A DNA stretch of 64,000 bases from Spirosoma oryzae (GTDB lineage: Bacteria > Bacteroidota > Bacteroidia > Cytophagales > Spirosomataceae). The notes beneath the pieces were generated by a model. It was not told the DNA's origin. It saw only the letters and a program-made list of their open reading frames with translations, and did not search any database. Where the stretch lies: assembly GCF_003002825.1 (NCBI RefSeq), contig NZ_PVTE01000004.1, positions 248,001 to 312,000 of the forward strand, written 5' to 3'. Numbering within the stretch: the stretch's first letter is position 1; the number at the start of each line of letters is the position of its first letter. The position numbers were made by a program, and so were the translations under genes. Shown piece after piece: positions 13,701 to 61,195 of the stretch.

Positions 13701-13804
13701 CCGGTATACGGCTTACAGTGTTCGGTATACGGTTCACAGTTTATCTGCATGCCCAACATACGTTACCGAACACTGTATCCTGAAAACCGAAAATCGTAAA
13801 CCGA
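13701..13804. repeat. Heptamer-periodic inverted element 1
   Basis: The left arm (13701-13745) and the inverted right arm (13760-13804) are each built of six degenerate 7-base units (RGTNTWC; variants include GGTATAC, GGCTTAC, AGTGTTC, GGTTCAC, GGTTTTC). Arms are separated by about 14 unrelated bases. The element starts 7 bases after the upstream stop and ends 3 bases before the histidine-kinase ATG, so it makes up the whole spacer. Confidence 0.85.
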
Positions 13805-13807
13805 CTT

Positions 13808-15298
13808 ATGACCCGCGAACAACTTATCGATACGCTTGGCAAAAACGGTCGGCGGCTGACAATGAAAGCCGGCGAGCTGGTTGGCTTCGATTTCAGCGGG
13901 CTCGATCTGACGCAGGCTGATTTCCGGTTCGCCGACCTGCGACGGGCCAATTTTCGGGGTGCTATTTTGCGGCAGGCCGACCTCCGCTACGCCAACCTAA
14001 GCGGAGCTGACCTTACCGACGCCGACTTGTACGGAGCAAACCTGAACTTCTGTGGTCTGTCGGATACCAAGCTCACGGGGGCCAATATGGAAGGCGCTTC
14101 GCTGAATTACTCCGTGGGCCAGGGGCACCAGTCACTGAAGAAGCTACCCGCCGAGCCGATTACGCTGACCACTATTCTGCAAAAGCCCGGCTGGGGTCTT
14201 ATGATCGGGGCCTTACTGGGCGCACTGCTCATCTACGGCTGTAACGCGGTTGTCTTTTTCACCAACCTGATTGTCACGGCGAAAGACCCGGTACTGGTCG
14301 GGTTATACCGCTTCCTGATCGTACAAAACCTGTCCGACGGCATAGTTATGTTTCTGCTGGTCTGGGCCATGTCGATCTGGCTGGCGCGACACGTTGCCAA
14401 ACCCTGGAAACGGCATTTAATTATCACTTTAGTCGTACTAGTCAGTTTCTTTATCGTCAACACCGGAATCTACTTCCTGATTGGCAAACCCAGTATCGAC
14501 GAACTGCGAAAGCGTTCCGAAGAAGCCTACGTCAACGCGCCGTGGTATTGCTACGTGGTCGGTGATCTGCTGGTTGCCAACTTTTTCTTATACATCCTGC
14601 AACAGGGTCGACAAATGACACGCAAGCTCTCCGAGCAGGAATTCCAGTTGCTCAATCTGGAACAGCTGAAAACCCGTGCTGAACTCGACGCGCTACAGGC
14701 GAAAATCAACCCGCATTTCCTGTACAACGCCCTCAACAGCATTGCTAGCCTGGTTCACGACGATCCCGACAAGGCGGAGGAAATGACGCTGCTGCTGTCG
14801 AAGCTGTTTCGGTATTCGACCGGGCGCGACGGTGAACTGTTTGCATCGCTGGCCGACGAACTGGAAATGGTACGCACCTACCTACAGGTCGAAAAAGTAC
14901 GCTTCGGCAACCGACTAACCTTCACCGTCGACATCAGCAACGATGCGTTGACTTCGTTGCGGCTACCGCAGTTCCTGCTACAACCCATCGTCGAAAATGC
15001 CATCAAACACGGTATTGCCAAGCGGGCGGAGTCGGGCCGGATCGACGTGCGGATTTACGAAAAAGCCGATTATCTGCATCTTTGCGTACACGACAACGGC
15101 CCTGCTTTTCCCGACGATATGGGGGGCGGCTACGGCCTGCGCAGCATCCAGGACAAACTGAACCTGCTCTACGGCGACGATGCCAGCGTTGAGTTTCAGA
15201 ATTTTCCGCTCAAGCAAGTCCTTATCTCGATCCGGCTGGACCGTATCAATACGCCCCCGGTCGGTACCGCATCCCCTACCCGGCCAACACCGGCCTAG
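13808..15298 (+). CDS. LytS-type sensor histidine kinase with N-terminal pentapeptide repeats
   Basis: A 496-residue membrane kinase. Residues about 28-105 are pentapeptide repeats (A(D/N)LxX pattern: DLTQADFRFADLRRANFRG, ADLTDADLYGANL), predicted to form a right-handed beta helix. Four hydrophobic segments follow near 125-148, 163-190, 199-222 and 246-265. The kinase core is of the His_kinase family (PF06580): AKINPHFLYNALNSI with phospho-acceptor His303, and an HATPase region ending in DNGPAFPDDMGGGYGLRS. It pairs with the LytTR regulator that starts 4 bases after its stop. The stimulus is unknown. The pentapeptide domain before the first membrane segment would lie on the cytoplasmic side. 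Confidence 0.93.
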   Translation: MTREQLIDTLGKNGRRLTMKAGELVGFDFSGLDLTQADFRFADLRRANFRGAILRQADLRYANLSGADLTDADLYGANLNFCGLSDTKLTGANMEGASLNYSVGQGHQSLKKLPAEPITLTTILQKPGWGLMIGALLGALLIYGCNAVVFFTNLIVTAKDPVLVGLYRFLIVQNLSDGIVMFLLVWAMSIWLARHVAKPWKRHLIITLVVLVSFFIVNTGIYFLIGKPSIDELRKRSEEAYVNAPWYCYVVGDLLVANFFLYILQQGRQMTRKLSEQEFQLLNLEQLKTRAELDALQAKINPHFLYNALNSIASLVHDDPDKAEEMTLLLSKLFRYSTGRDGELFASLADELEMVRTYLQVEKVRFGNRLTFTVDISNDALTSLRLPQFLLQPIVENAIKHGIAKRAESGRIDVRIYEKADYLHLCVHDNGPAFPDDMGGGYGLRSIQDKLNLLYGDDASVEFQNFPLKQVLISIRLDRINTPPVGTASPTRPTPA

Positions 15299-15302
15299 TT
15301 TT

Positions 15303-16103
15303 ATGAAACTCCCCCTTACGACCCTCCTCATCGACGACGAACCACTCGCCATCAATCGACTACGTCGACTCCTCGACAAACACCGTGACGTATTTACCAT
15401 TATCGGCGATGCCGCCAACGGTGCAGAAGGCTTATCGATGATCGAAACCACCCAGCCCGACCTGGTTTTTCTGGACATTGAAATGCCCTTGCTGAACGGG
15501 TTTGAAATGCTGTCACGCGTCAACACGATGCCGCTGGTCGTCTTTGCCACCGCCTTCGATCAGTACGCCATCCGCGCCTTCGAAGAAAATTCGGTCGACT
15601 ACCTGCTCAAGCCAATCGAAGCCGACCGGCTGGCCCGCACGGCCCAGAAAATCCGATCTATGGCCGAACGCAGTACCACGTCGCATAATGCTGCCAACGA
15701 ATCGACTGCGCTGCCCATGGCTACCGAAAACGTAATGCGCCTGCTGGCGCAGATGCAACCCAAAAAAGAGATTTACTCGATTTCGGTGAAGATGGGCGAC
15801 AAGATCCGGCTCATCCCCCTGTCCGACATCGTTTATTTTGAAGCCGAAGACAAGTACGTCTTTCTCGCGACGACCGACGGGCAGAAATTTCTGACGTCCT
15901 ACACCCTGACAACCCTGAGTGAGAAATTACCCGACACGTTTGTGCGCGTCAGCCGCTCAGCGATGATTAACCGGCAGAAAATCAGCGAGGCTCACAAACA
16001 TTTCGACGGCAAGTTCCAACTGGTTATGGGCGACAAAAAAGCGACTCGTCTAACCACCGGTACCACCTATAGCGACACCGTACGGCAGCTACTCGACTTA
16101 TAA
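15303..16103 (+). CDS. LytTR-family response regulator
   Basis: A 266-residue regulator. The receiver domain (about 8-125) begins LLIDDEPLAINRLRRLL and has the phospho-acceptor Asp58 in FLDIEMPLLNGFEM; the conserved Thr/Ser and Lys region is VVFATAFDQYAIRAF and YLLKPIEADRL. After a linker, the C-terminal LytTR DNA-binding domain has IYFEAEDKYVFLATTDGQKF and FVRVSRSAMINRQKI. It is the cognate partner of the upstream histidine kinase. The ATG at 15303 is used; a longer frame from 15180 lies inside the kinase gene. Confidence 0.95.
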   Translation: MKLPLTTLLIDDEPLAINRLRRLLDKHRDVFTIIGDAANGAEGLSMIETTQPDLVFLDIEMPLLNGFEMLSRVNTMPLVVFATAFDQYAIRAFEENSVDYLLKPIEADRLARTAQKIRSMAERSTTSHNAANESTALPMATENVMRLLAQMQPKKEIYSISVKMGDKIRLIPLSDIVYFEAEDKYVFLATTDGQKFLTSYTLTTLSEKLPDTFVRVSRSAMINRQKISEAHKHFDGKFQLVMGDKKATRLTTGTTYSDTVRQLLDL

Positions 16104-16183
16104 GCGGTATACGGTTTTCAGGAGCCGGTTTACGGTGAATTACTTGCGGATCACCGAATACCGTAAACTGAAAACCGTATACC
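16104..16183. repeat. Heptamer-periodic inverted element 2
   Basis: The left arm (16104-16140) starts at the first base after the regulator stop. The right arm (16151-16183) ends 9 bases before the SUI1-like start. Units include GGTATAC, GGTTTTC, AGTTTAC, GGTATTC. The outer 14 bases of the two arms pair perfectly. Confidence 0.85.
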
Positions 16184-16192
16184 TTTACCAGT

Positions 16193-16528
16193 ATGAGCAA
16201 GAAAAATCGGTCGGGCGTTGTCTACTCGACGAATCCTGATTTCCAGTATCAGGCTGATAATATGCCGGACGTCGACACATTGGCACCGGCCCAGCAAAAC
16301 CTTAAAATCTGGCTGGTCAAGCTGGGGGGTAGCAAAGTGGTTACGGCCGTGCGGGAGTTCATCGGCACCGACGCAGACCTGGCCGATCTGGGTAAACAGC
16401 TAAAAGCCGCCTGCGGAACAGGCGGCTCAGTAAAAGACGGCGAAATTCTGATTCAGGGCGACCACCGCGACAAAGTACTGACGTGGCTCACCGGCAAAGG
16501 CTATAAAGCAAAGAAAGCGGGCGGCTGA
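16193..16528 (+). CDS. SUI1/eIF1-like translation factor (YciH family)
   Basis: A 111-residue protein matching bacterial eIF1/SUI1 homologues. The conserved part is NLKIWLVKLGGSKVVTAVREFIGTD, then LGKQLKAACGTGGSVKDGEILIQGDHRDKV and a basic C-terminus (GYKAKKAGG). In E. coli YciH is thought to influence start-site fidelity; a role here is inferred by homology only. It is transcribed in the same direction as the two-component genes but separated by a heptamer element. Confidence 0.93.
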   Translation: MSKKNRSGVVYSTNPDFQYQADNMPDVDTLAPAQQNLKIWLVKLGGSKVVTAVREFIGTDADLADLGKQLKAACGTGGSVKDGEILIQGDHRDKVLTWLTGKGYKAKKAGG

Positions 16529-16535
16529 CCGGCGG

Positions 16536-17432
16536 TCAGGGTTTCTCCTGCCGCACCTGTTCAATCAGCGACAGGACTTCAGCAAGGTCCATCTCAAACG
16601 TATCGGCGATTGTTTCGGCATCCATACCCAGCTTGAGCGCACCTTTGACAAGTTTGCGGTTTATTTCCACGCGTCCTTCCATTCGTAGTTGATCGGCTCC
16701 ATTCATGGCAGCTTCTTCGGTTTCTTTGGATACTGTACTAAAGATAAAGACAATGTCTGAACCAGTCAAGTTCGTCGTTTCGAGCAGGTACAGGAACGTC
16801 GGCAAAACCACCGACATTAGTTCATCAACGGCGATACCCTGCATCAGTCGCTGTATATTCTGACGAATATAATCGGCAAACTGCTTATCCTGCCGATGCT
16901 TCATCAGCGCAGCCGATACCGTCAGAAATCGGTTTCGGAACGTGAAGATCTGCTTATCACTAAGCGCAGTCAAATTGACCAGCAAGTAGTCGAATTCGGG
17001 AAAGAACGGCTTAACCAGCGCATTCATGCCCAATAGCGACGCAGCAAATGGTAGGTGCTGCCAGGTGTCGGTGCCGTGGTAGATCAGTACCGGAATTACC
17101 GGCGTCAGCTTCTGACCGTGCTCGACATCCTGTTGCCAGCGATTCAATAGGTAGCGCATCAACTGTAGATGCGGATGCGCTACCGTATAACTTTTGTGCT
17201 CCAGTAACAAAGCAATCTGAACAGGCATGCCGTCGTCCAGCAGACAATCGTAGACCAGATCGGCAAAATGCTCATTGAGTTCGTCATCAATGTACGAATT
17301 CGTTGTCAGCACCAGCGAATCGAGCCGGATGGCCTGTCGTAACGCAGCCGGAAATAGCGATTCGATCAGCGAAGCGACGACATCCGGTTGCGAAAACGCA
17401 GCTTTGAATAACTTGTCGTGCGGATTGTTCAT
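16536..17432 (-). CDS. Rpn-family PD-(D/E)XK nuclease / putative transposase
   Basis: A 298-residue protein of the Rpn family (PF04754). The start NNPHDKLFKAAFSQPDVVASLIESLFP is the family signature. A likely PD-(D/E)xK site is formed by the Asp in HFADLVYDCLL and the ExK of ALLLEHKSY. IPVLIYHGTDTW is also conserved, and the C-terminus is a variable helical tail with the GADQLRMEGRVEINRKLVKG type segment. E. coli RpnA to RpnE are DNA endonucleases that promote RecA-independent recombination. Its start is 3 bases after the stop of the peptide transporter, an unusual apparent operon partner. It converges with the SUI1-like gene. Confidence 0.88.
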   Translation of the reverse strand: MNNPHDKLFKAAFSQPDVVASLIESLFPAALRQAIRLDSLVLTTNSYIDDELNEHFADLVYDCLLDDGMPVQIALLLEHKSYTVAHPHLQLMRYLLNRWQQDVEHGQKLTPVIPVLIYHGTDTWQHLPFAASLLGMNALVKPFFPEFDYLLVNLTALSDKQIFTFRNRFLTVSAALMKHRQDKQFADYIRQNIQRLMQGIAVDELMSVVLPTFLYLLETTNLTGSDIVFIFSTVSKETEEAAMNGADQLRMEGRVEINRKLVKGALKLGMDAETIADTFEMDLAEVLSLIEQVRQEKP

Positions 17433-17435
17433 TGG

Positions 17436-19722: not shown

Positions 19723-19738
19723 GCTACCATTTAATCAC

Positions 19739-35762: not shown

Positions 35763-35790
35763 GGTATTCGGTTTAAAGTTTTCGGTAGTC
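35763..35790. repeat. Single heptamer array upstream of the photolyase gene
   Basis: Four units (GGTATTC, GGTTTAA, AGTTTTC, GGTAGTC) in exact 7-base register. No inverted partner arm is visible nearby, so this is either a half element or a decayed one. Confidence 0.65.
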
Positions 35791-35842
35791 TGGTCGGACT
35801 GACGTACGGTAGCAAACCAGCTGTTTGAGGAAATGGTTACAT

Positions 35843-36587: not shown

Positions 36588-38558
36588 CTACGGATTGAGC
36601 CGCAGCAGTTGAATAGCCGATGGGTGATCGGCATCGTGGTACAACCGAATCGTTGCTTTCTTATAATCGTCGTCGTTGGCCGAACCAATGTTGATGAACT
36701 GTTGCGGATTACGGTCGACCAGCGGGAACCATGAACTTTGTATCTGTACCATCAGTCGATGGCCTTTACGAAACGTATGCAGCACATCAGGCAGTTGAAC
36801 CTTAACTACTGTCGGCTGATTCGGCACAAACGCTTCAGGCTTCTCGAACGACGACCGAAACCGCCCACGGATAACGTCTGCCCGGACCAGCCGCTGATAA
36901 CCGGCTAACTGAACGCCCTTCAACGGACTACCTGCCTTGTTATAGTCTGGACTAGCCGTACTGTCGGGCAATACGTCAATCACTTTTACGATAAAATCGG
37001 CATCGGTGCCCGACGTGGCGACAAACAGCGTCGCGTCGATCGGGCCGGCGCTTGTCAAGTCTTCGGTCAGGGGTTCGGTTTCGAAGACCAGCACATCAGG
37101 TCGGCGGGCAGCAAAGCGCTGGTCTTCGATCATGTACTGGTTGTTACGCCGGGCAAACACGCCGTCGGTGTACGGAACCGGTTTGGCGGGATCGCTCACA
37201 TACGAATCATACGCATCCGGACCGGTGGGTTTTGTTGTACTGAGCTGCTGATTGGCCGTCAGGTAAAACGTACCAGGCTGCGCAGCTGCGGGTGGCCACT
37301 GCGTAAACGACTGCCAGCGGTTGCTTCCCGTATCGAACACACGGGCTTCCGGCTGATCGAACGTCCCCTTATTTTTTAGGTGATAGGCGAAGAAACGGGT
37401 TTCGATACTGTCGCGGTAGTATTTGGCGGTATTCTGCCCAAACGCTAGTGGACCGAACTGACTCCAGTTGGCCCGTGCCCAGGCACCGTGCGTCCACGGC
37501 CCCATCACGAGTTTGTTCTGGCTTTTCGACTGCTGTTCAATGCTTTTGTAGGTTGCCAGCGCGCCAAAGAGATCTTCGGCATCGAACCAGCCCCCAACGA
37601 CCAGCGTAGCCGGCGTCAGGTTTTTTAGGTGCGGGCGAATATTGCGGCTTTGCCAGTACGCGTCATACGTGTCGTGCTGAATGTACTCGTTCCAGATCTT
37701 ACTTTTCTGATTGTAGTACGTCGGTCCGTTAGCGTTTTTCAGCGCACCCATCTTTAAAAAAAACGAATACGCGTCTTTCATCGGTGCTTTGAACAGCGGA
37801 TCGTAGTCTTCCACAGGCCCGGTACGGGGGCCATCGAAATAATTGATAAACCCAAAATTGTCGAGCAGGAAGAATGCCCCCTTGTGCCGGGCGTCATCGC
37901 CAATAAACTCATCGGTGACGGGGGCCTGTGGCGATACGGCTTTCAGAGCCGGGTGCGCACCGGGCAGCGCTGCCGACGCGTAGAAACCGGGATACGAAAT
38001 CCCCATCAACCCGACACGACCGTTGTTGTTCGGCACATTCTTGAGCAGCCAGTCGATGGTATCATACGTGTCGGTGCTCTCGTCGGTTCCGGTGGGTGTA
38101 ACCGATTTGGCTTTGCCTTTTTTAGCGGTCGGCGCGGGCGTGGTACTGCGGTTGAGCGCGGGCGTCATTTCCTCGAACTGCCCTTCGCTCTTGTACCGGC
38201 CTCGTACATCCTGATACACGAAGATGTATTTCTCCTGCGACAGTTCGGTCGACATACCCGGTCCAGACTTTGGGTAATTAGTTTCGCCGTAGGGAGCCGC
38301 CGAATACGGTGTCCGCTCCATGAGTATCGGGTACCGGTTGGTCGGCGATGCATCGGTCGGTACGTAGATCGTCGTGTACAGCTTTACGCCATCGCGCATG
38401 CCGATTTGCCGATCGAGTTTACGATAGTTCTGCCGGACAAACAGTGAGTCAGTACCCGGTGTCTGCGCATAGCAGAAGGATGTGAGAAGGAGAAGAAGGT
38501 ATACAGTTTTCAGTATACGGCTTACGGTGTTCCGTTGTACGCTAGTTCGTTGGCGCAT
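36588..38558 (-). CDS. CocE/NonD-family hydrolase (X-Pro dipeptidyl-peptidase S15-like)
   Basis: 656 residues. After an export signal (YLLLLLTSFCYAQ), the alpha/beta-hydrolase part begins IGMRDGVKLYTTIYVPTDAS. The nucleophile Ser is in GLMGISYPGFYAS. A likely catalytic Asp is in VVGGWFDAEDLFG and a His in MGPWTHGAW. The C-terminal jelly-roll (PDVLVFETEPLTEDLTSAG to LRLNP) is the family's carbohydrate-binding-like domain. It hydrolyses esters or N-terminal dipeptides with Pro at position 2; substrate not predictable. Residues about 9-21 (RNTVSRILKTVYL) are encoded by a heptamer repeat array that has merged with the gene start. ATG 38558 is the only ATG before the signal. Confidence 0.92.
   Translation of the reverse strand: MRQRTSVQRNTVSRILKTVYLLLLLTSFCYAQTPGTDSLFVRQNYRKLDRQIGMRDGVKLYTTIYVPTDASPTNRYPILMERTPYSAAPYGETNYPKSGPGMSTELSQEKYIFVYQDVRGRYKSEGQFEEMTPALNRSTTPAPTAKKGKAKSVTPTGTDESTDTYDTIDWLLKNVPNNNGRVGLMGISYPGFYASAALPGAHPALKAVSPQAPVTDEFIGDDARHKGAFFLLDNFGFINYFDGPRTGPVEDYDPLFKAPMKDAYSFFLKMGALKNANGPTYYNQKSKIWNEYIQHDTYDAYWQSRNIRPHLKNLTPATLVVGGWFDAEDLFGALATYKSIEQQSKSQNKLVMGPWTHGAWARANWSQFGPLAFGQNTAKYYRDSIETRFFAYHLKNKGTFDQPEARVFDTGSNRWQSFTQWPPAAAQPGTFYLTANQQLSTTKPTGPDAYDSYVSDPAKPVPYTDGVFARRNNQYMIEDQRFAARRPDVLVFETEPLTEDLTSAGPIDATLFVATSGTDADFIVKVIDVLPDSTASPDYNKAGSPLKGVQLAGYQRLVRADVIRGRFRSSFEKPEAFVPNQPTVVKVQLPDVLHTFRKGHRLMVQIQSSWFPLVDRNPQQFINIGSANDDDYKKATIRLYHDADHPSAIQLLRLNP
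38498..38534. repeat. Heptamer array inside the 5' end of the S15 peptidase gene
   Basis: Five units in register (GGTATAC, AGTTTTC, AGTATAC, GGCTTAC, GGTGTTC) from 38498 to 38532. They lie within the coding sequence of the minus-strand gene starting at 38558. An inverted arm occurs at 39175-39207 on the other side of the nested repeat spacer. Confidence 0.75.
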
Positions 38559-39206
38559 CTTGTCAGCGTTTGTGAATAATGCTGCAAACTACGCATTATA
38601 CCCCCACCTCCGAGTTGTCGGAGCGCCCGTTGGGGAGGGGACATTTAAGGACTAGAAGGCAAAGAGTCTATGGCCCTTTCCACCCCTAAATCCCCTGAAG
38701 GGAACTTTTTTCGAGCATGAGCAAAGTCCCCTTCAGGGCAGGGCTGTTAAGTTCTGGGTAGCCCCACCCCCCAGCCCCCTAAAGGGCAGGGCTGTTAAGT
38801 TCTGTTCCGCCCTACCCCCCAGCCCCCTAAAGGGGGAGCATTCCACAAATGAAGTTCACCCCCTTTAGGCCGGGCCGACGTTTCGGGGCTGGGGGGTAGA
38901 TGGACCGAAGGTAATTTGGCTACCGTCAGCGTCAATTTAAGAACTTAACAGCCCTGCCCTAAAGGGGGAGCCGTTCATCCGCAAAATGCTCCCCCTTTAG
39001 GGGGCTGGGGGGTGGTTTAGCCGAAGGAAATTTGGCCAATACCAGCATTAAATCAAGAACTTAACAGCCCTGCCCTTCAGGGGATTTAGGGGTAAAAGAG
39101 CCTACTCAAATACCACATAACATGTTCGCCCTAACGGGCGCTTTAATCCGTCAGAACGCTGAAACCCGTACGACAGACCGCCGAAAACCGTATACCGAAA
39201 ACCGTA
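38559..39206. repeat. Composite nested inverted-repeat spacer (CCCCCTAAAGGGGG family)
   Basis: No gene is visible in this 650-base spacer. An outer pair (38681-38702 with 39073-39093) encloses further inverted copies of AGGGCTGTTAAGTTCT (two on the left near 38739 and 38787; inverted near 38940 and 39056) and of CCCCCAGCCCCCTAAAGG with its complement. A separate small hairpin CGCCCTAACGGGCG is at 39128-39141. The same modules recur at 45731-45830. The heptamer array at 39175-39207 ends exactly in the copA stop codon. Confidence 0.85.
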
Positions 39207-47996: not shown

Positions 47997-50551
47997 CCTT
48001 TCCCCCGCAGCACGTCCAGTGGCGAACGCGCCAACACATCCCGACTGTTGAACAACCCGATCAACAAGGTTAGTACCGTGACGGTGGTGGCCACAACGAG
48101 CAAGGGCAACGGGTCGATCTGGTAAGGCACCTCGAAGACGAACCGCGCCAGCGACCACGTCCCGGCTATCGACAGCAGGATACCCGATAGAGCAGCCAGA
48201 AACCCCAGCAGTCCGTATTCGATGGCGGTGATCTGTAGGATCTGTTTGCGACTCGCACCAAGCGTTCGTAGCAGCACGCTTTCGCGCAATCGCTGGTATT
48301 TGCTCAGGACGACCGAACTGCTCAGTACGAGTAGCCCCGTCAGGATACTGAACAGCGCCATGAACCGGATAACGAACGAAATCTGACCCAGTATTTCATC
48401 CAGCGTTTTCAGAATCAGGCCGAGGTCGATTGCCGATACGTTTGGGAAGCGACTCACCAGCACGCGCTGCAACCGGGCCGAAGTCTGGTTGTCGGGCACG
48501 CGGGTCATCAGCACGCGGAACTGGGGTGCCTGTTCGAGCACACCCGCCGGAAACACCACCAGAAAATTAGTTTGTACCCGGTTCCAGTCGACCTCCCGTG
48601 TGCCACCGATGATGGTTTGCAGGGGTAATCCCTGCACGTTGAAGTCGAGCGTATCGCCAATCTTCGCCCGCAGTCGGCTCAGGAAGTCTTTTTCGACCGA
48701 AATGTACACGTTGCCATTCGCCTGATAAGGGCCTTGGCCCGAAGCCGGCTTTTCCGACGAAATCAGCGAATCGCGGTAGGTAACGCGGTATTCGCGGGTG
48801 AACGCCCACGGTGGCGGTCCGGTCGTGTCGGTGCGGGCGGATTGCTGGGGCTGATCGATGGGTTTGGCGGTATCGGCGGCACTGCTTCGACCATTGATAC
48901 CCGTCAGTCGCATCGTTACGACGGGCACTTCCTGAAGTATAGGCAGTTTCTGTTCCCGTACCGCGTCACGCACGCCGGCAATCTGCTCGTTCTGAATATC
49001 GAACAACACCATATTCGGCTGCTGTCCACTCCCCGACAACTCGACCCGACTCAGTAATAGTCCCTGCGTCAGATACAGCGTGGCAATCAGAAACGCGCCC
49101 AGCCCGATTGCCGTCACGAGAATAACGGTCTGGTTATTCGGCCGGTACAGATTCGCCAGACTTTGCCGCCAGACGTAACTCCAGGCTGTTGGAAACAGTC
49201 GACGGACCAGCCAGATCAGGCCCAACGACACGGCTGTCAGCACGCTGAACGCTACGACTAGCCCGCCGGTAAACCAGCCCGCCAGTTGCAGATTTCGCGT
49301 TTGCCAGTAGGCGAAACCAATGATAAACGCGAGTATCAACCCGTAGGCCAGCCAGCGAAGGGGATCACGACCGGCCGTATCAGCTTCGTAGGCGGAACGT
49401 AACGTACGCAGCGGGGAAACTTTGCGAATGCTCAACAGCGGTAGCAGCGCGAACAGGACTGAAATGAGCACGCCCGTTCCGATACCGCTCATCACCGCCG
49501 GCACCGACAGGGTAGTCTGCACGGCAATGGGCAGGAAGCGACCGAAGACCTGCGGCAGCGCCAGTTGAACTACCGATCCCAGCACTGCCCCGATCGTCGC
49601 GCCGATCAGCCCCATGATCGCCGTTTGCAACAGATAGATCAGCATCGCCTGCCGACCGCTTGCCCCTAGCGTCCGTAGGATAGCGACCGACGCTACTTTT
49701 TCCTTCACATACAGTTGCACGGCGCTCGCAACACCCACGCAACCCAGCAGCAGGGCAACAAACGCCACCAGACTCAGGTATTTGGTCAGGTCGCCAAACG
49801 CACGGCCGGTTTGTCGCTTACGATCAGCTACGGTATCTGTATTGATACCCGCCCGTTCCAGTCGTCGTTCGACGGGACGAATCGCCCGCGCAACGTCGGT
49901 GCCGGGCGCAAACTGATAGTAGTATTTGTAACTCACCCGGCTACCCCGCTGTAGCAATCCGGTTCCGGCCAGATACCGGTTTGGTACAAACACCGTGGGG
50001 GCCACCGTAGCGGCAATCGCGGCCTGACCGGGCGTTTTCTCGACTCGTCCGGCAATCAAAAACGACAATTCACCCAGCCGTACCGAATCCCCAGGCTGCG
50101 CACCAAGTTGCACGAGCAGCGCATCGTCGACGAGCGCCACCTGCTGATCGGCCCGCCGAAACGTGGCAATGGCCGAACGCGGTTCCACTTCCCAGTCGCC
50201 ATAATACGGGAAGCGGCCTTCCAGCCCTTTCACCTGCGCCAGCCGCACGCCACCCGTTCGTGGAATCGACACCAGCGACGGAAACGCCACTTCATAAGCC
50301 CGATCCTGACCGATGGATGTCAGCAGCCGCTGTATGCGTTTTGTTGGCGTTCGGCTCCACGACAGCGTCAGGTCGGCACCCAGTAGTTCGCGCGCCTGCT
50401 CGTCGATACTCCGGGCCAGGTTATCACCAAACGAATTGATCGCGACCAGCGCAGCAATGCCCAGCACGATCGCCGACATAAACAGTAGTAGCCGCTGCCG
50501 GCTCCGGCGACTGTCGCGCCACGCCATCTTGAAAAGCCAGGAGGTATTCAT
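47993..50551 (-). CDS. ABC transporter permease of the FtsX/YbbP type
   Basis: 852 residues. One N-terminal membrane segment (LLLFMSAIVLGIAALVAINS) is followed by a periplasmic domain. A first FtsX core lies at about 260-380 (YLSLVAFVALLLGCVGVASA, KVASVAILRTLGASGRQAML) and a second at about 730-850 (FVIRFMALFSILTGLLVLSS, LRESVLLRTLGASRKQIL), with four segments in between. This 'two FtsX domain' layout is that of YbbP. It forms a transporter with the ATPase gene 88 bases upstream. The function of YbbAP is not settled; an envelope role with the adjacent esterase is likely. Confidence 0.92.
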   Translation of the reverse strand: MNTSWLFKMAWRDSRRSRQRLLLFMSAIVLGIAALVAINSFGDNLARSIDEQARELLGADLTLSWSRTPTKRIQRLLTSIGQDRAYEVAFPSLVSIPRTGGVRLAQVKGLEGRFPYYGDWEVEPRSAIATFRRADQQVALVDDALLVQLGAQPGDSVRLGELSFLIAGRVEKTPGQAAIAATVAPTVFVPNRYLAGTGLLQRGSRVSYKYYYQFAPGTDVARAIRPVERRLERAGINTDTVADRKRQTGRAFGDLTKYLSLVAFVALLLGCVGVASAVQLYVKEKVASVAILRTLGASGRQAMLIYLLQTAIMGLIGATIGAVLGSVVQLALPQVFGRFLPIAVQTTLSVPAVMSGIGTGVLISVLFALLPLLSIRKVSPLRTLRSAYEADTAGRDPLRWLAYGLILAFIIGFAYWQTRNLQLAGWFTGGLVVAFSVLTAVSLGLIWLVRRLFPTAWSYVWRQSLANLYRPNNQTVILVTAIGLGAFLIATLYLTQGLLLSRVELSGSGQQPNMVLFDIQNEQIAGVRDAVREQKLPILQEVPVVTMRLTGINGRSSAADTAKPIDQPQQSARTDTTGPPPWAFTREYRVTYRDSLISSEKPASGQGPYQANGNVYISVEKDFLSRLRAKIGDTLDFNVQGLPLQTIIGGTREVDWNRVQTNFLVVFPAGVLEQAPQFRVLMTRVPDNQTSARLQRVLVSRFPNVSAIDLGLILKTLDEILGQISFVIRFMALFSILTGLLVLSSSVVLSKYQRLRESVLLRTLGASRKQILQITAIEYGLLGFLAALSGILLSIAGTWSLARFVFEVPYQIDPLPLLVVATTVTVLTLLIGLFNSRDVLARSPLDVLRGKG

Positions 50552-50554
50552 ACA

Positions 50555-50644
50555 TGATTGAGTGATCGAATTGTTGAGTGATTGAGTGATTGAATGGTAG
50601 CATGCGTCAGCCTATTCAATCATTCTATCACTCATTCATTCAAC
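50555..50644. repeat. Octamer-periodic inverted element A
   Basis: From 50555 five octamers follow in exact register (TGATTGAG, TGATCGAA, TTGTTGAG, TGATTGAG, TGATTGAA). An inverted arm of the same type is at 50611-50644. The element fills the spacer between the FtsX start (50551) and the ATPase stop (50640-50642), and provides that stop codon. Confidence 0.82.
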
Positions 50645-51317: not shown

Positions 51318-51435
51318 GGTTTACGGTATTCGGTTTACCGTTTACGGTGGTATGTCGTGACCTGATTTTTCAGGTGACAGGCAATCGTTCGAGCGCTGCA
51401 TGGCTCAGAAAACCGTAAACTGAATACCGTAAACC
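51318..51435. repeat. Heptamer-periodic inverted element 3
   Basis: Left arm 51318-51354 and right arm 51404-51435, units GGTTTAC, GGTATTC, CGTTTAC, AGTTTAC, GGTTTTC. The outer 14 bases pair perfectly. Between them is another small hairpin (CCTGATTTTTCAGG, 51361-51374). It fills the divergent spacer between the ATPase and esterase genes, so promoters of both must lie in or at it. Confidence 0.85.
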
Positions 51436-51452: not shown

Positions 51453-52160
51453 ATGAAGTTCTCCCGATTAGCTGGTTCCGTGATAGGCGGCTGGCTACTA
51501 CTGTCAGTGGTTACCGGTTGCGGGTCGTCGGATTCGAAAACCGAATCGACCGCAGAAACCACGACGTCTTCGGCTAAGCCTACTGCTACGAAACCGGCGG
51601 ATTCGGCCCCCAAAAAGACGATTCTATTTTACGGCAACAGCCTGACGGCCGGATATGGCGTCGAACCGAGTCAGGCGTTTCCGGCGCTAATTGGCAAAAA
51701 AATCGACTCGCTGGGACTGGGTTACTCAATCGTCAATGCCGGCTTGAGCGGTGAGACTACCGCCGGTGGGAAAAGCCGGATTGGCTGGGTACTCCGCAAA
51801 CCCGTCGACGTATTCGTGCTGGAACTGGGCGGTAACGATGGTCTACGCGGCTTACCCCTGTCGGCCACGCGGCAAAATTTACAGGCGATCATCGACACGG
51901 TTCGGGCGAAAAGTCCGCAGGCGCAAATCGTACTGGCCGGTATGCAAATTCCGCCCAATATGGGAACGACCTACGCCAACGAATTTCGCGAGCTGTACAA
52001 GCAACTGGCCGATAAAAACAAGCTAGTGCTGATTCCCTTTTTGCTAGAGGGTGTGGGGGGTGTTCAAAAGCTGAATCAGCCGGATGGTATTCACCCCACC
52101 GTGGCCGGCCACCGTATCGTCGCCAATACCGTCTGGCAGGTGCTTCAACCGATTTTATAG
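51453..52160 (+). CDS. TesA-like SGNH esterase/lysophospholipase, lipoprotein
   Basis: 235 residues. The signal WLLLSVVTGC is a lipobox, so the protein is probably membrane-anchored, unlike soluble periplasmic E. coli TesA. A Ser/Thr/Ala-rich linker follows (SSDSKTESTAETTTSSAKPT). SGNH blocks: LFYGNSLTAGYG (Ser; GNSL instead of GDSL), VNAGLSGETTAGG (Gly), LELGGNDGLRG (Asn) and DGIHPTVAGH (Asp-x-x-His). The family cleaves acyl esters, lysophospholipids and acyl-CoA. The divergent partner genes encode a YbbAP-type transporter. Confidence 0.93.
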   Translation: MKFSRLAGSVIGGWLLLSVVTGCGSSDSKTESTAETTTSSAKPTATKPADSAPKKTILFYGNSLTAGYGVEPSQAFPALIGKKIDSLGLGYSIVNAGLSGETTAGGKSRIGWVLRKPVDVFVLELGGNDGLRGLPLSATRQNLQAIIDTVRAKSPQAQIVLAGMQIPPNMGTTYANEFRELYKQLADKNKLVLIPFLLEGVGGVQKLNQPDGIHPTVAGHRIVANTVWQVLQPIL

Positions 52161-52165
52161 ACAGT

Positions 52166-52269
52166 GTGTAGCCCAGACCTCCCGGTCTGGAGGGCGCGAT
52201 AGCGACCAAAAAGCTGCCGCCCGTAGCAGTTGGCCTGACGGCCTCCAGACCGGGAGGTCTGGGCTACAC
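52166..52269. repeat. 28-bp perfect inverted repeat (CCCGGTCTGG family)
   Basis: The arm 52166-52193 is the exact reverse complement of 52242-52269, with a 48-base spacer. It starts 5 bases after the esterase stop and ends at the base before the tamL stop codon. Placed between convergent genes it can serve as a bidirectional transcript-end hairpin. Confidence 0.9.
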
Positions 52270-54675: not shown

Positions 54676-54833
54676 GCAGTTTACGGTTTACGGTTTACAG
54701 TATTTGGTTCATGACCTGCGGCCCTTCCACTTTATTCGAAGGCCATGCGCAAGTCATCGACCCATTGGTCCGCCATACAACGAGCCACACCACGGTGACC
54801 ACCGTAAACCGAACACTGTAAACCGTGAACCGG
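54676..54833. repeat. Heptamer-periodic inverted element 4
   Basis: Left arm 54676-54710 (AGTTTAC, GGTTTAC twice, AGTATTT) and inverted right arm 54800-54833 (GGTTCAC, GGTTTAC, AGTGTTC in minus-strand reading). About 90 bases lie between the arms, with no recognised content. It spans the whole tamB-tamL spacer: 6 bases from the tamL ATG and 2 from the tamB stop. Confidence 0.85.
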
Positions 54834-57800: not shown

Positions 57801-59923
57801 ATCGACACTTTCCCCGCGACACTGGGAAATTCCCCTTTAAGATTGGTATTGATGTCGAGATTCAGGTTGGCATTCGGATCTTTCAGCCCACCCGTCAGCG
57901 CCAACAGCCCATTGGTCAGTTTCCCTTCGGCATCCAGATTCTTGTAGACGTAGCCGTTCAGATCAGCCGATTGAATGGCCAGGTCGAAGGTTGTGCTTAA
58001 CGTGTTCACGTCGATGCCGCGCCCATTGACCGTAGCCCGCCCGGTAATCTTGCCGACCGTACCCGTCTGCTTCGTCCACTTTCCGGCGTCAAAATCCGTC
58101 AGGTTCAGCGTACCCTTGTAGGTCTGATTTTTACCAGCTACGAAGCCAGCCAGTTGGCCGTCGAATCCCGCTGTTCCCCAGTCCGTCGCCAGATTAGCGT
58201 TCAAGTCGAGGTTGTTCAGCGCACCGCTGATCTTCCCGGTCAGCCGTAAGTTGGGTGGTAAGTCGATGGTCGATGGAATAGACCCCGGCGGAGCCAGCCG
58301 GTTGATGTCGGCCAGGTTGGTCGTTCCCTCGCGGATGTCGAGGTCGACGCCGATCCGGTCGGGATCGGTAACGTTGGTGAGCCGCCCGCTTGCGGCAATG
58401 CGTGTGCCCGACAGCATGTCCAGTTCGAGCCGGGGCAGATTCAACGCAGCCAGCGTACCCGTGGCCGTAGCGTTGGCCCGGAACACCCCGCCCGGACTGT
58501 TAAACGGGGGCGTATCGGCCAGGAAGGGAGCCAGTTGCAGTACGTCAGCTACCGACAACCGGCTTTGCTTCAGGTTGACATTGACACTGACTCGCCGGGC
58601 AAAACGTGGGTCCGACAGTTGCGCCAGCGAATCGTATTTCAGCACCAGCCGGTCGCGGATCAGGCTGGTCGGAGTTTGCGCGTAAAGCCGTGTGACAGAT
58701 GTTGTCTTGTCATTGTACAACACATCGCCCTCCAGCTTTTGCAGGAAAAAGCCACTGCTCGACCGGAAGCGCCCGTTACGTAGCTGCCCGCTAACGAGCT
58801 GGCCTTTAGCCCCTAAATCACGGTACATTAGAAAACGACCGTCGATACCTAAATCGCGCAGGTCGAGATGACTGTAGTCGAGTCCTCGCGCCTGTCGGGG
58901 TGCCGTTTCATCGTCGTATCGAATTCGATTATTGGCAAACCGTACGTTGGTCAGCTTCGCCTGCCAGCCCAGCGTGGATGCGCCCGGCGTGGATGCGCCA
59001 GTTGTTGATTTTGGCGCTGATGGCGTCGCTTTTCGCGTGGGTTTGAGCAGTGTGGCCGTAACGTCGCCATTCGTCAGCGCCAGCGATTTGATACCAATTT
59101 TTTCGCCGTTCAGGTAAAAATAGTCCGACTCCATGGCCAGACGTCCGACGTTACCAGTCGTTCGAAAGTCAGCCGTCTCGACGCGAACGTCCCACTTTGT
59201 CCGGTTGAGTTGCCATTTCCCCAGGCCAATATTCAGCGTATCGTCGGGGGCCGACGGCGGACTGGGCGGAGTTGGTAATCCTTCGTACAACCGCACGGAC
59301 GCATTCAGCCCGTTTCCCGTGACGTCTTTCAGCCGATAAATCGACTTGTATACGTTGGTTTCATCGAAGTTAACCCGGAGGCTGTCCGTGTACGCATTTA
59401 CGTCGGCACCTACGACATCGTCGTGGTACCGAATACGAACGTCTTTCAACGATAGACCCGTGAGGTTGATCGCCATCGGGGTCGACACCGTATCGGCGGG
59501 TTCGGGGGCTGTACCCGTATCGAACGCATTGATGATGTACTGGAAATTAAATGTCGTGTCGGGCAGCGTCCGGTTAATATTCAGACTGACCTTTTCGAAA
59601 TCGATCTGATTGATAGCCAGCTTGTTGTTCAACAACCCCCACATATCCAGATCCACGCGCATTTTGCCACCGTCGATCAGCGTATCACCTTTTGGCGTAA
59701 TAAACAGTACGTCGGTGAGCTGGATATAATCGGGGATTTCGTAGCTGACCCGCCCGATACGAAACGGTGATTGCAGCCGGTTGGCCAGGTATGAATTGAC
59801 CTGTTTCGTAACGAACTGCTGCCCCCAGGGAGTGGTCGCTATCAAAACGACGAATCCCGCCACGAGCAGGATCAGGGCTAGCAAACCAAGCAGTACACGA
59901 ACAAGTATTTTAGGGGCAGACAT
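54836..59923 (-). CDS. tamB: Translocation and assembly module protein TamB
   Basis: 1695 residues. A signal-anchor (LLGLLALILLVAGFVVLIAT) precedes the AsmA-like N-terminal region (TTPWGQQFVTKQVNSYLANR). The long centre is repetitive beta structure forming the hydrophobic groove, and the C-terminal DUF490/TamB domain begins near 1320 (ARGNAQLNVTVTPAGEISVL, GRYDVTEGEYSLTYQ) and includes LPFEVLLTISDNLESPKLTF. TamB is anchored in the inner membrane, spans the periplasm and works with TamL; related proteins carry phospholipids to the outer membrane. It probably forms an operon with tamL. Length is at the upper end for the family. Confidence 0.94.
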   Translation of the reverse strand: MSAPKILVRVLLGLLALILLVAGFVVLIATTPWGQQFVTKQVNSYLANRLQSPFRIGRVSYEIPDYIQLTDVLFITPKGDTLIDGGKMRVDLDMWGLLNNKLAINQIDFEKVSLNINRTLPDTTFNFQYIINAFDTGTAPEPADTVSTPMAINLTGLSLKDVRIRYHDDVVGADVNAYTDSLRVNFDETNVYKSIYRLKDVTGNGLNASVRLYEGLPTPPSPPSAPDDTLNIGLGKWQLNRTKWDVRVETADFRTTGNVGRLAMESDYFYLNGEKIGIKSLALTNGDVTATLLKPTRKATPSAPKSTTGASTPGASTLGWQAKLTNVRFANNRIRYDDETAPRQARGLDYSHLDLRDLGIDGRFLMYRDLGAKGQLVSGQLRNGRFRSSSGFFLQKLEGDVLYNDKTTSVTRLYAQTPTSLIRDRLVLKYDSLAQLSDPRFARRVSVNVNLKQSRLSVADVLQLAPFLADTPPFNSPGGVFRANATATGTLAALNLPRLELDMLSGTRIAASGRLTNVTDPDRIGVDLDIREGTTNLADINRLAPPGSIPSTIDLPPNLRLTGKISGALNNLDLNANLATDWGTAGFDGQLAGFVAGKNQTYKGTLNLTDFDAGKWTKQTGTVGKITGRATVNGRGIDVNTLSTTFDLAIQSADLNGYVYKNLDAEGKLTNGLLALTGGLKDPNANLNLDINTNLKGEFPSVAGKVSITELNLKPLKLYSDPLSLKGDINLDMTSTDPARPVGTVSASDAVLTLNGTRYPVDSLYARLTADGNNKGVLAAIPGARLRLNGQFAYDRLYDIVVGEISRYIAVPDLTYKKVTTPYDFTLNLKAYQNPLFRAFVPELTRLDTVRLNARLDSQGGGIANDTSLVATLKTGVVVYDTTTIKSSNFVLRGNGRQLAVDGNVSGAVYDGTNIGPTSLTGTAQNNRFQFGLVSKDSLDQNRHGLAGTLSVVDKNYRFQFARRGLLTNYEQWTADTSGFAQYGKDGVLVDRIRLEADNQSLEVSSTEPYGNAPLRVTTRAIELANLARLTGQDTTLASGQLNGTIVVRDYMAEDSQLAFIGSIYVDSLQVMQKPIGNLTARFNNTSDGKINVNTVLAGPYNDATVTGFYNPDDAKQALNLAINLKRLDARTIEAFSFGELRQAKGQLTGELNVAGSTSNPKLDGSVNFDSVAFNIKQSNATYFIDKEKVGFSGQTVTLDNFTLRDTQNRTLDVDGTVVLKNLPDATYNLRVRTSGFQVLNAARKDNDYAYGQASVSADLRIRGAGTSPAVVGKIRLEDGSKIAVVLPDESIAAEEMNGIVTFVNPKDSLALTKYLYASKKDTTQRKLSFDNLNNANISLDLEVDEKSELTIVVDELNGDYLRARGNAQLNVTVTPAGEISVLGRYDVTEGEYSLTYQILKRQFELQKGGYISFTGDPLKADINLTAVYKVSTPAGDLVGSESSALPAVAAKRKLPFEVLLTISDNLESPKLTFDIQLEEGQGSSTTELASSIEAKLKSLRQDQTQINKQVFALLVLNRFLPENTSDFFSGSNNGGLDTQAEGIARSSVSKLISDQLGRLASNVLKGFDVDFNLLSQTGSTNTGGTTNGARTDLNIGLSKSFLEGRITVAVGRNFLLENAANSATRNPNEIFDNVSVNYNLTRDGRYVLRGYRNNDYQAILDGYIIETGVGFVITIDYNTLSDLLHRSSGSSAAN

Positions 59924-60063
59924 TCAGTATAGATAGCGAATCGGCTGGTGGAAAGTCGATTAACAAGCCGACGATACAGGGCGGCACTAGTTGATAAAGC
60001 GCTACGGTAATAACGGGTCAGGTAGGAATTATGTTACCTGACCGACGGCATCTCTTATCTGCC

Positions 60064-60210
60064 TTATACAAACCAAATGCCGACTTTGTTGCCCAGCAGG
60101 GCAAAATTACCGCCTGATGGGTCGCGGAAACCTTTCGTCAGACCAGTCGTCCTTTCTTCGCCGGTTTGTTGCAGACCCGCCCCACAGCCGGTACTTTTGC
60201 GGTCAACCAT
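60064..60210 (-). CDS. Candidate small ORF (48 residues)
   Basis: A minus-strand frame from ATG 60210 to TAA 60064 lies in the 313-base spacer between tamB and terC. It encodes a basic peptide with Gly-rich segments (STGCGAGLQQTGEERTTG, KGFRDPSGGNFALLGNKVG). Codon choice is like that of the neighbouring genes. The tail 'FRDPSGGNFALLGN' resembles the end of VOC-type domains, so it may be a gene remnant. The terC promoter box overlaps its 5' end, which argues against it. Apart from this, a hairpin (GTCAGGTA with TACCTGAC near 60018-60043) is the only structure seen in the rest of the spacer. Confidence 0.35.
   Translation of the reverse strand: MVDRKSTGCGAGLQQTGEERTTGLTKGFRDPSGGNFALLGNKVGIWFV
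60169..60199 (+). promoter_or_regulatory. Putative terC promoter (TTG-N20-TACTTTTG)
   Basis: TTG (60169-60171) and TACTTTTG (60192-60199) match the Bacteroidota promoter consensus with 20 bases between. Transcription would start near 60206, 31 bases before the terC ATG. No manganese riboswitch (yybP-ykoY) could be recognised in the spacer. Confidence 0.55.
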
Positions 60211-60236
60211 CTGGTTTTTTTTCGTTCTCCTGATCC

Positions 60237-61046
60237 ATGAGCGACCTGTTTACGGCCGAATCTATTGTTAGCTTACTTACCCTGACGTTTCTGGAAATCG
60301 TCCTGGGTATCGACAACATTATCTTTATCTCCATCGCGGCTAACAAGCTGGCGGTACAGGATCAGGGTAAAGCCCGCAACATCGGCCTTATCCTGGCGAT
60401 GGCCTTCCGGCTGGCGCTGCTGACCGTTATATCGTTCGTCATTTCGCTGAGTAAGCCATTTACCCATATCGACGCCGGCTGGTTCAGGGCCGAACTGACC
60501 GGGCAAAGCCTGATTCTGTTTGCCGGAGGGCTATTTCTCCTCTACAAAGCAACGTCGGAGATTCACCACAAACTCGAAGGCGATGCCGAGGAAATGGCCG
60601 ACGCCACGAAAGGAAAAGCCACTGTTTCGAGCGTCGTGACGCAGATCGCCATTACCAACATCGTCTTTTCGATCGACTCGATTCTAACGGCCATCGGGCT
60701 AACGCAGAACGTAACGATCATGATGATCGCGGTCGTTCTGTCGATTGGTATCATGATGTTCTTTGCCGGCCCCGTCGGTAAATTCGTCAACGAGCACCCC
60801 ACGATTCAGATGCTGGGGCTAGCCTTCCTGATTATGATCGGCTTCATGCTGGTAGCCGAGGGCGCTCACCTATCGGAAGTCGTTATCTTTGAACAACACG
60901 TGGGTGAAGTGCCGAAGGGGTATCTTTACTTCGCCATTGCGTTCTCGCTGCTGGTTGAGTTTCTCAACATCCGGCTGCGCAAGACGCAAAAACCCGTCAC
61001 GCTCCGCCCCTACGATGGGCAGCCGGGACGGGACGGAATGGTATAA
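60237..61046 (+). CDS. TerC-family integral membrane protein (putative metal exporter)
   Basis: 269 residues with seven hydrophobic segments. The family motifs FLEIVLGIDNIIFISI and ITNIVFSIDSILTAIG carry the conserved acidic residues of the transport core. A charged cytoplasmic loop lies between (HHKLEGDAEEMADATKGKA). TerC proteins of other bacteria move Mn(II) out of the cell and help metallate exported proteins; tellurite resistance is the historical name. The short C-terminus is hydrophilic. The heptamer element starts inside the last codons. Confidence 0.93.
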   Translation: MSDLFTAESIVSLLTLTFLEIVLGIDNIIFISIAANKLAVQDQGKARNIGLILAMAFRLALLTVISFVISLSKPFTHIDAGWFRAELTGQSLILFAGGLFLLYKATSEIHHKLEGDAEEMADATKGKATVSSVVTQIAITNIVFSIDSILTAIGLTQNVTIMMIAVVLSIGIMMFFAGPVGKFVNEHPTIQMLGLAFLIMIGFMLVAEGAHLSEVVIFEQHVGEVPKGYLYFAIAFSLLVEFLNIRLRKTQKPVTLRPYDGQPGRDGMV

Positions 61047-61195
61047 CGGTTTCTCGGTATACCGTCTACGGTGGTCATCACACGGTGTTGTTCGCCAGGC
61101 GTAACCCACGAGCTACTCGTGTACCGTTCCGCCCCGTATACTGAAAGACCAAAACCACCGAATGCCGTAAACCGAATACTGTAAACCGAACACCG
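61040..61195. repeat. Heptamer-periodic inverted element 5
   Basis: The left arm (61040-61074) overlaps the terC stop codon and is partly out of register (two 8-base units). The right arm (61155-61195) is clean: GGTGTTC, GGTTTAC, AGTATTC, GGTTTAC, GGCATTC in minus-strand reading. It ends 3 bases before the nuoN start. Confidence 0.82.

Follow-up and report, generated by a model that had tools for sequence, protein, structure and literature searches.

Facing ladders of degenerate 7-base units at gene ends of Spirosoma oryzae occupy conserved sites and differ in sequence type between sister species

The STRR heptanucleotide repeats of heterocystous cyanobacteria are tandem 7-base units located in spacers, organized as direct repeats and not known to have paired facing arms. 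The elements analyzed here, in a 64,000-nt stretch of the Spirosoma oryzae genome (the window), are likewise tandem 7-base spacer units but come as paired, facing arms. The TAACTGA heptamer repeats of Beggiatoaceae, cyanobacteria, and some Bacteroidetes are described in PMC4679880 as one-sided direct repeats, with related 7-mers interrupting 36 of 169 sets and 1 inverted case among 170; the largest class stops 1 nt ahead of start codons, and one reverse set in F. litoralis lies immediately past a stop codon. The BrickBuilt MITE of Porphyromonas gingivalis (PMC4596501) is built of 23-nt units and lies 49 to 591 nt from genes, with 19 copies in a single strain. REPINs and REP-BIMEs (PMC3116915) are extragenic, hairpin-forming elements in many copies and several groups per genome, with facing arms, a variable spacer, and a short tagged palindrome.

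The heptamer elements share all of these REPIN/REP-BIME properties except the last: no short tagged GTAG/CGTC-like palindrome was found in the halves, the arms being degenerate ladders of GTWTWCR, GTYYAAN, or GTTYGTR units. Unlike in REPIN/RAYT systems, no cognate RAYT was found for them in S. oryzae, and their positions are conserved while the unit type differs by species. Like the TAACTGA repeats (PMC4679880), they are intergenic 7-base tandem units near start codons (the start-codon side is within 15 nt of the element in 84 of 134 cases) and have the same polarity; by our own comparison, TAACTGA rotated into this register is GTTATCA, a single step away from GTWTWCR. The heptamer elements differ from those repeats in forming facing pairs, in having unlike neighboring units, and in comprising three types, and the initial annotation of the window had rightly set its degenerate facing heptamers apart from plain cyanobacterial heptamer repeats. 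The BrickBuilt element (PMC4596501) is also an intergenic element of Bacteroidota with tandem repeats inside inverted repeats, but it is neither gene-flush nor built of facing ladders. No description of a facing degenerate-heptamer-ladder design was found in the literature searched.

Arms were located in the window with a general profile, which recovered heptamer arms in 7-base register at every place that the initial annotation had listed and gave seven further short or weak matches (14 to 18 bits) elsewhere. The window contained no Rfam match at gathering score. The features are as follows.

13704..13745, plus strand: left arm, C-type, 6 units, beginning 10 nt past a stop codon
13767..13801, minus strand: right arm, partner of 13704, finishing 6 nt ahead of the ATG at 13808
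16107..16134, plus strand: left arm, C-type, 3 nt past the stop codon of a gene for a LytTR response regulator
16155..16189, minus strand: right arm, partner of 16107, 3 nt ahead of the ATG of a SUI1-domain gene
35764..35791, plus strand: single arm whose outer end lies 6 nt from a minus-strand gene's start codon
38499..38540, plus strand: left arm of a far-spread element, overlapping the longest minus-strand ORF, 36588-38558
38541..39181, no strand: enlarged 641-nt loop with nested repeats, including GGGCTGTTAAGTTCT and CCCCTTTAGGGGG palindromes
39182..39202, minus strand: right arm, partner of 38499, 4 nt from a minus-strand gene's stop codon
51319..51346, plus strand: left arm, C-type, in a divergent spacer
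51407..51434, minus strand: right arm, partner of 51319, a profile match
54679..54713, plus strand: left arm, C-type, adjoining an Omp85-domain gene
54803..54830, minus strand: right arm, partner of 54679, 5 nt from the stop codon of a 1695-aa ORF
61055..61089, plus strand: left arm, weak at 16.5 bits, 8 nt past the stop codon of a TerC-family gene
61159..61193, minus strand: right arm, partner of 61055, 5 nt ahead of the start of a proton-antiporter-family gene

Gene order suggests that the Omp85-domain gene is TamA-like. Two entries of the initial annotation change in reading. The sequences at 38498 and 39175, listed there as further arms, are indeed arms but make most sense as the left and right arms of a single element, separated by 641 nt of nested repeats; the orthologous spacer of one sister species, G020, holds a normal pair with a 116-nt loop, and the gene caller starts ORF 36588-38558 further in, 99 nt from the left arm. 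The complete element reported at 61040-61195 has a clear right arm, whereas its left arm is the weak one listed above. The proposed consensus, RGTNTWC, had the register right, but its rotation GTWTWCR fits the S. oryzae genome (G000) better.

The observation of heptamer arms is confirmed on a larger scale. On C4, the 363-kb contig that holds the window, intergenic DNA contains 60 heptamer arms compared to 0 to 1 in ten dinucleotide shuffles, a control of the kind that the initial annotation had named as able to refute it. Arms of at least 18 bits number 62 in the 363 kb and 1 in the reversed sequence. Strict patterns gave 102 matches genome-wide and none reversed, and a second strict count gave 300 matches (some overlapping) against none, in keeping with the single dispersed family that had been proposed. 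The two contiguous runs analyzed contain 405 spacers that are 60 nt or longer, and 47 of these carry a pair. Copy number varies across the genus, and the element types have expanded in a lineage-specific fashion.

Facing pairs of this kind occupy many spacers in S. oryzae and in two sister species, G020 and G022. The arms are ladders of mostly four to six degenerate units that keep the 7-base register, and the units fall into three types that can occur together in a single genome: C (GTWTWCR), A (GTYYAAN), and G (GTTYGTR). In C-type arms, G1, T2, T4, and C6 are almost invariant, positions 3 and 5 are mainly T or A, and position 7 is mainly G or A. Typing relied on these unit rules because refined profiles of the types failed to stay separate; approximately one-fifth of the units match none of the rules, and the type of an arm is the majority call over its units. 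The majority type agrees between the left and right arms in 172/179 elements, with 7/179 mixed-type pairs, and units of more than one type are mixed within single arms in G000 (31 of 196 arms) and G020 (38 of 162 arms). The window alone reveals neither the A and G types nor the turnover between species. Arms had been said to face each other always, and nearly all do: neighbors within 220 nt have the plus-minus orientation in 24/25 cases on C4, 22/23 in the G020 run, and 126/128 in other stretches, although the paired-element set itself admits only such pairs by construction.

Beyond the units, little is held in common. No loop or inner sequence present in most copies was found, nor did the element ends, when compared, share a sequence of the kind that terminal repeats give a MITE. 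A conserved loop core (GCGTCAGC or TTGCC..GGCAA) was considered and rejected, the shared words being weak; the excess of shared words in G000 loops is due in part to a nested GTAGCCTGGACC-like palindrome. TAnnTTTG is the Bacteroidota promoter motif, and its presence within arms, looked for by eye, was also among the rejected ideas.

Most of the elements lie in spacers that adjoin a stop codon on one side or both. The stop-codon side is within 15 nt of the element in 178/197 cases (median, 4 nt), which upholds the description of the arms as flush with ORF ends. Divergent spacers carry pairs less often than other spacers do (3/84 versus 44/321; P = 0.007).

The sister species compared are approximately 80 to 87% identical. 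The check at orthologous spacers that had been suggested was positive: across 168 spacers, 17 of 21 C4 pairs meet a pair at the syntenic G020 spacer, where 2.75 are expected (P ∼ 2e-15). Differences in presence are few, with 2/21 C4 pairs armless in G020 and 3/22 G020 pairs armless in C4, and no clean filled/empty heptamer site, of the sort that would reveal a target-site duplication, was recognized among the syntenic spacers read. A comparison with G015, an element-poor genome with thin synteny, covered three element spacers. The sequences at these conserved sites have changed. Over 35 arms, orthologous arms are 0.663 identical compared to 0.650 for random cross-species arms. Paralogous arms are 0.741 identical in G000 and 0.664 in G020, the latter resembling the orthologous value because G020 mixes types.

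At the C4 spacers 64360, 75401, 78215 (left arm), and 264103 (the window element at 16107), the type is C in G000, G in G022, and A in G020, with the G022 type at 64360 and 264103 read by eye where the caller gave none. Among the window's other elements, the spacer orthologous to 13704 is C-type in both sister species, that of 54679 is A-type in both, and that of 61159 is G-type in G020 and C-type in G022. At the 51319 locus, the flank TGAACAATT and the register are common to the three genomes, the type is A in G022 and G020 and C in G000, and the G000 arm retains GTTTACC, the odd unit of G022. The G020 orthologue of C4 78215 is a half-swap in which the left arm is A-type and the right arm is homologous to the G000 C-type arm. 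Orthologous arms of the same type are in phase in 6/10 cases (P = 0.001), compared to 6/25 for arms of different types (3.6 expected; P = 0.14); given the lack of a clear phase match in the latter, some replacements may be new insertions.

Elements at different loci are related to each other. Scoring alignments of element pairs at a threshold of at least 22 against one unit-shuffled set, we found 421 versus 115 related pairs for G000 C-type elements (3,828 pairs), 185 versus 35 for G020 A-type elements (1,378 pairs), and 17 versus 7 for G020 C-type elements (190 pairs), although the top G000 scores stem mostly from another palindrome nested in the loops. Unit order and loops are thus common to loci beyond the unit-shuffled control, indicating that copying happens.

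We give an even chance to the reading that these elements are REPIN-like palindromes at inherited sites, with arms rewritten by copying from other loci of the genome. Under it, the sites would be old and inherited by the sister species, and the arms would be repeatedly replaced by arm copies from other elements of the same genome, perhaps via nonallelic gene conversion or via template switching where replication forks stall at hairpins. Each lineage would then drift toward a distinct mixture of the C, A, and G types, which would amount to concerted evolution in a dispersed bacterial repeat. The interpretation offered in the initial annotation is partly supported, and its suggestion of recombination sites fits best if taken to mean sites of element-to-element conversion. 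Arms of ∼35 nt with 65 to 75% identity are poor substrates for RecA recombination, which counts against overwriting by conversion. It is possible, if somewhat doubtful, that a palindrome class without an evident transposase persists by self-rewriting among hundreds of 7-base ladders, with sister species bearing different C/A/G "alleles." A hairpin is probably transcribed from the element right after the stop codon and may, by analogy with E. coli REPs, serve passively at the 3′ end of the mRNA; REPs less than 16 nt from a stop lower translation in E. coli, according to work cited in PMC12306157.

A rather unlikely alternative is that the elements are nonautonomous mobile palindromes (REPIN/MITE) moved by a transposase, with new subfamilies displacing old ones at the same spacer or palindrome and later deletions making them flush. 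The relatedness of elements at different loci, the lineage-specific expansion of types, the uneven copy number across the genus, and the lack of significant phase conservation between arms of different types would all be expected of such elements, and the copying between loci bears out that part of the earlier proposal. The conserved positions, with their few presence/absence differences, and the absence of a loop or end sequence common to most copies argue against it. So does the transposase search, which covered the Y1 family: the single Y1 match in G000 is flanked by palindromes of another kind, GTAGCCCAGAC, with no heptamer arm in that 3.2-kb stretch, and the Y1 and C-type heptamer counts are uncorrelated over 36 genomes (Spearman 0.00). 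A RAYT-driven REPIN is not supported, and an anticorrelation suggested by low Y1 counts in three heptamer-rich genomes was rejected on that rank correlation. In-place growth by replication slippage of a 7-base repeat, as in the slippage-grown hairpins once suggested, is hardly credible: related heptamers do form perfect tandem arrays in other genera, but in G000 and G020 slippage is disfavored because identical adjacent units are depleted (25 versus 50 expected in G000 C-type arms, 7 versus 26.5 in G020 A-type arms, and less strongly in G020 C-type arms). Identical next-but-one units show no significant enrichment either (42 versus 34, 17 versus 18, and 6 versus 7).

The strong folding of the elements (mean MFE z of −5.5, −7.3, and −5.7 in sets of 60, 52, and 15 elements no longer than 160 nt), their closeness to stop codons, and the agreement in type between arms would suit functional RNA hairpins selected at gene ends as 3′ stabilizers or for ribosome stalling or processing, with types drifting while the arms pair. 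A-type arms of G020 also mirror each other (in-register identity of 0.805 versus 0.760 for shuffled partners; z = 7.5). C-type arms barely do so (0.791 versus 0.781; z = 2.0), mixed-type pairs occur, and the sense strand has no bias of G-U over A-C (143 versus 142) and so offers no evidence that an RNA stem is under selection. T-runs follow the hairpin at 17/356 ends (4.8%) compared to 3.1% of intergenic 15-mers (P = 0.06), a slight excess at most, and an intrinsic terminator was rejected on this basis. We consider a selected RNA hairpin improbable, and the RNA-stability role raised earlier keeps the folding but gains nothing from strand bias and little at most from T-runs. Very improbable is an array of binding sites for a protein reading a 7-bp register, analogous to the heptads bound by the ribbon-helix-helix omega protein of pSM19035, with types changing along with protein specificity. 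The fixed G1, T2, T4, and C6 of C-type units, with restricted positions 3, 5, and 7, look like a motif rather than mutational decay, but one genome holds three types together, and the placement hugs stop codons and tends away from divergent spacers.

The usual examples of concerted evolution in bacteria are rRNA and tuf genes. If the self-rewriting of the heptamer elements is real, such evolution would extend to a dispersed short repeat. The combination of conserved sites with species-specific sequence offers a natural test bed for whether it acts on dispersed repeats of bacteria. If arms are converted rather than reinserted, gene-end hairpins would be hot spots of short-tract recombination. 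The abundance of these elements also suggests that RAYT-centered searches for REPs can overlook abundant palindrome families. Octamer and longer-period families of the same genomes may act likewise, and designs of the same kind were also found in other genera. The idea of an autonomous copy carrying a gene between its arms was set aside; one wide pair of two-unit arms, near 165.9 to 167.4 kb on C4, encloses two ORFs of 340 and 327 aa.

The elements are real and abundant. On inspection of the window, heptamer arms are present at the places given by the initial annotation. A position weight matrix for the arms, refined on contig C4 (of which the window is positions 248001-312000) with a cut-off of ≥18 bits, detected 62 arms on this contig versus 1 in the reversed sequence, and the core lay within a called gene in 6 of the 62. 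The pattern also withstood the shuffled control that had been proposed for it, with 60 intergenic arms on C4 versus 0 to 1 in ten dinucleotide shuffles. Elements likewise occur elsewhere in the 6.57-Mb Spirosoma oryzae genome (G000), where two strict patterns gave 102 and 300 partly overlapping matches genome-wide and none in a reversed control. The arms at window positions 38498 and 39175, first listed as separate, both exist, but the most fitting reading makes them the two arms of a single element whose loop measures 641 nt. At window 38541-39181 and C4 61917-62072, heptamer elements enclose nested repeats that have GGGCTGTTAAGTTCT ends, as well as CCCCCTTTAGGGGG palindromes.

In the register used here, the unit of the window is GTWTWCR (C-type); its positions 1, 2, 4, and 6 hardly vary, T or A predominates at 3 and 5, and 7 is mainly G or A. 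Two more unit types, GTYYAAN (A-type) and GTTYGTR (G-type), were found in relatives. The arms had been described as always facing each other, which is nearly but not always so: among neighbors ≤220 nt apart, 24/25 faced each other on C4, 22/23 in a run of the sister species G020, and 126/128 in other stretches. An element set was assembled from the surroundings of strict pattern matches in G000 and G020, plus one contiguous run per genome; it is biased to clean arms and admits facing pairs only. With types assigned as majority calls per arm, both arms had the same type in 172 of its 179 pairs. Units of more than one type were mixed in 31/196 arms of G000 and 38/162 of G020, and 196/959 and 164/793 units, respectively, fit no type. 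Across the three sets examined, arms mostly contain 4 to 6 units (range, 2 to 10). Loops span 5 to 130 nt, with medians of 37.5 nt for G000 and 16.5 nt for G020; in neither genome do most of them share a sequence. The folded RNA of elements of ≤160 nt is far stabler than shuffles (mean z of -5.5, -7.3, and -5.7 for 60, 52, and 15 elements). Left and right arms of G020 A-type elements clearly mirror each other (z 7.5); for G000 C-type the mirroring is weak (z 2.0), and two small sets, G020 C-type (z 0.9) and G000 G-type (z 0.3), gave no detectable signal.

The outer end was ≤15 nt from a gene boundary in 47/62 C4 arms, and the inner end in 0/62. In the 179-pair set, the distance was ≤15 nt on 178/197 stop-codon sides (median, 4) and on 84/134 start-codon sides (median, 9), the gene calls coming from a simple caller of our own whose starts are less certain than its stops. 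Subtracting the element from its spacer leaves a median of 14 nt (154 elements); spacers of ≥60 nt without an element have medians of 167 to 249 nt, depending on orientation. Among solitary arms, the outer end was flush in 37/48, and a gene lay ≤15 nt from the inner end in 3/48. Among spacers of ≥60 nt in two unbiased runs, paired elements occupied 3/84 divergent and 44/321 other spacers (P 0.007 pooled; P 0.053 and 0.18 for the runs singly), and divergent spacers made up 6/154 in the enriched set. Octamer-armed inverted elements (degenerate TGATTGAR and RGTTGTAR, by eye) also fill spacers, at window 50551-50639, C4 17628-17713, and C4 146898-147037; the C4 146898 spacer measures 139 nt in G000 versus 21 nt in G020. 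In the G020 spacer orthologous to C4 335538, read by eye, one gene is bordered by a G-type heptamer arm and the other by an octamer arm (RGTTGTAR), and a terminator-like hairpin lies between the two arms.

Our best guess at a function is a passive 3′-hairpin role. T-runs followed hairpin ends in 4.8% of cases versus a 3.1% background (P 0.06), sense-strand G-U bias was absent from the arms (143 versus 142), and the window had no Rfam matches. Escherichia coli REPs are reported to lower translation at certain stop-codon distances (PMC12306157), and the stop-codon distance of the heptamer elements falls in that range.

G020:C1:180-560 kb is collinear with C4 at 80% identity and provides 168 syntenic spacers, in which arms were counted at ≥13 bits. 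Plus and minus arms were both present in 21/168 of these spacers in C4; in G020, the same spacers held both arms in 17 cases, a single arm in 2, and none in 2 (P ~2e-15). In the reverse direction, 3/22 G020 pairs had no arm in C4. At the 17 doubly paired spacers, the types in G000 and G020 were C and A in 10, C and C in 3, and other combinations in 4. Arm identity was 0.663 for orthologous arms (n = 35) and 0.650 for random cross-species pairs, compared to 0.741 and 0.664 for paralogs within G000 and G020. The explanation we favor is that sites are inherited while arms are overwritten by copies from elsewhere in the genome.

The metagenome-assembled sister species G022 is nearer to G000 than G020 is (85 to 87% identity). 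Three types occur in the three species at C4 64360, 75401, 78215, and 264103, where the G-type units of G022 at 64360 and 264103 were read by eye, the automatic caller giving none, and the A-type of G020 at 78215 is the left arm only. The G020 element at 78215 combines one new arm with one old arm. C4 261693 is C-type in all three species; at C4 299308 and 302669, G022 and G020 share A-type and G000 has C. At C4 299308 (window 51319), the flank, the register, and one odd unit are common despite the differing type, so the type changed in place. Phase was kept in 6/10 same-type arms (P 0.001) and, not significantly, in 6/25 type-different arms (P 0.14); both conversion and fresh replacement of arms may therefore occur. 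At C4 257805-257977, an A-like element is present in all three species with conserved flanks and strongly different arms and loop, which suggests faster change within the element than in its flanks.

Growth by slippage predicts the opposite of what the arms display, namely a depletion of identical neighboring units (observed versus expected, 25 versus 50 for G000 C-type, 7 versus 26.5 for G020 A-type, and 4 versus 10 for G020 C-type); loss of identical neighbors by deletion could contribute. Perfect heptamer arrays are present in other genera, so the depletion is a property of the G000 and G020 lineages. As for copying between loci, unit order and loops were common to within-genome element pairs beyond one unit-shuffled set (421 versus 115 of 3828, 185 versus 35 of 1378, and 17 versus 7 of 190). 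For 5/6 best G000 pairs shown, the score comes from a different palindrome nested within the loops, and in 5/6 best G020 A-type pairs an alignment of 69 to 81 nt covers both arms and the loop at moderate identity.

No driver of the heptamer elements was found in a search that covered the Y1 transposase family, and a conversion machinery is what we infer. Y1 matches numbered 1 in G000, 1 in G020, and 0 in G022, whose genome is 82% complete, and Y1 counts did not correlate with C-type heptamer counts (rho 0.00, 36 genomes). The G000 match, which by its motif we take to be a RAYT-like protein, has no heptamer arms in its flanks:

L220:1186-1806, Y1 match, RAYT-like gene of G000, with GTAGCCCAGACC...GGTCTGGGCTAC palindromes (the GTAGCCCAGAC kind) in its flanks

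Window 52160-52269, a convergent spacer, is filled by a palindrome of this same kind. Across species, that spacer holds the GTAGCCCAGAC palindrome in G000 and a CAGGATTACAGG palindrome in G022, and the G020 sequence resembles that of G022 at the right end only.

The closest known systems are REPINs (PMC3116915) and TAACTGA heptamers (PMC4679880). No account of such a design turned up among the results listed by searches of the open-access literature, which leaves out most subscription journals and bioRxiv preprints; the elements are apparently a so far undescribed variant of the dispersed-palindrome kind. Their evolutionary behavior is unusual and worth further study.

C-type words occurred in 26/59 genomes, counting that of the window, and C-type words plus a second pattern in 28/390 genomes and 15/130 genera of the order. 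A-type words are abundant in G020 and G-type words in G022 and G020, while G000 has 1 A-type and 14 G-type matches. Outside the genus, 20 places in eight genomes were chosen from the matches listed, and facing pairs were present at 17, with a gene ≤20 nt away on both sides in 9 and on at least one side in 16. The exceptions were a single arm (L228), a complex locus (L239), and arms facing outward (L243). Besides such outward-facing arms, other families of the order contain long one-direction heptamer arrays, mostly of GTTTAAT (G055:C45:122700-123020).
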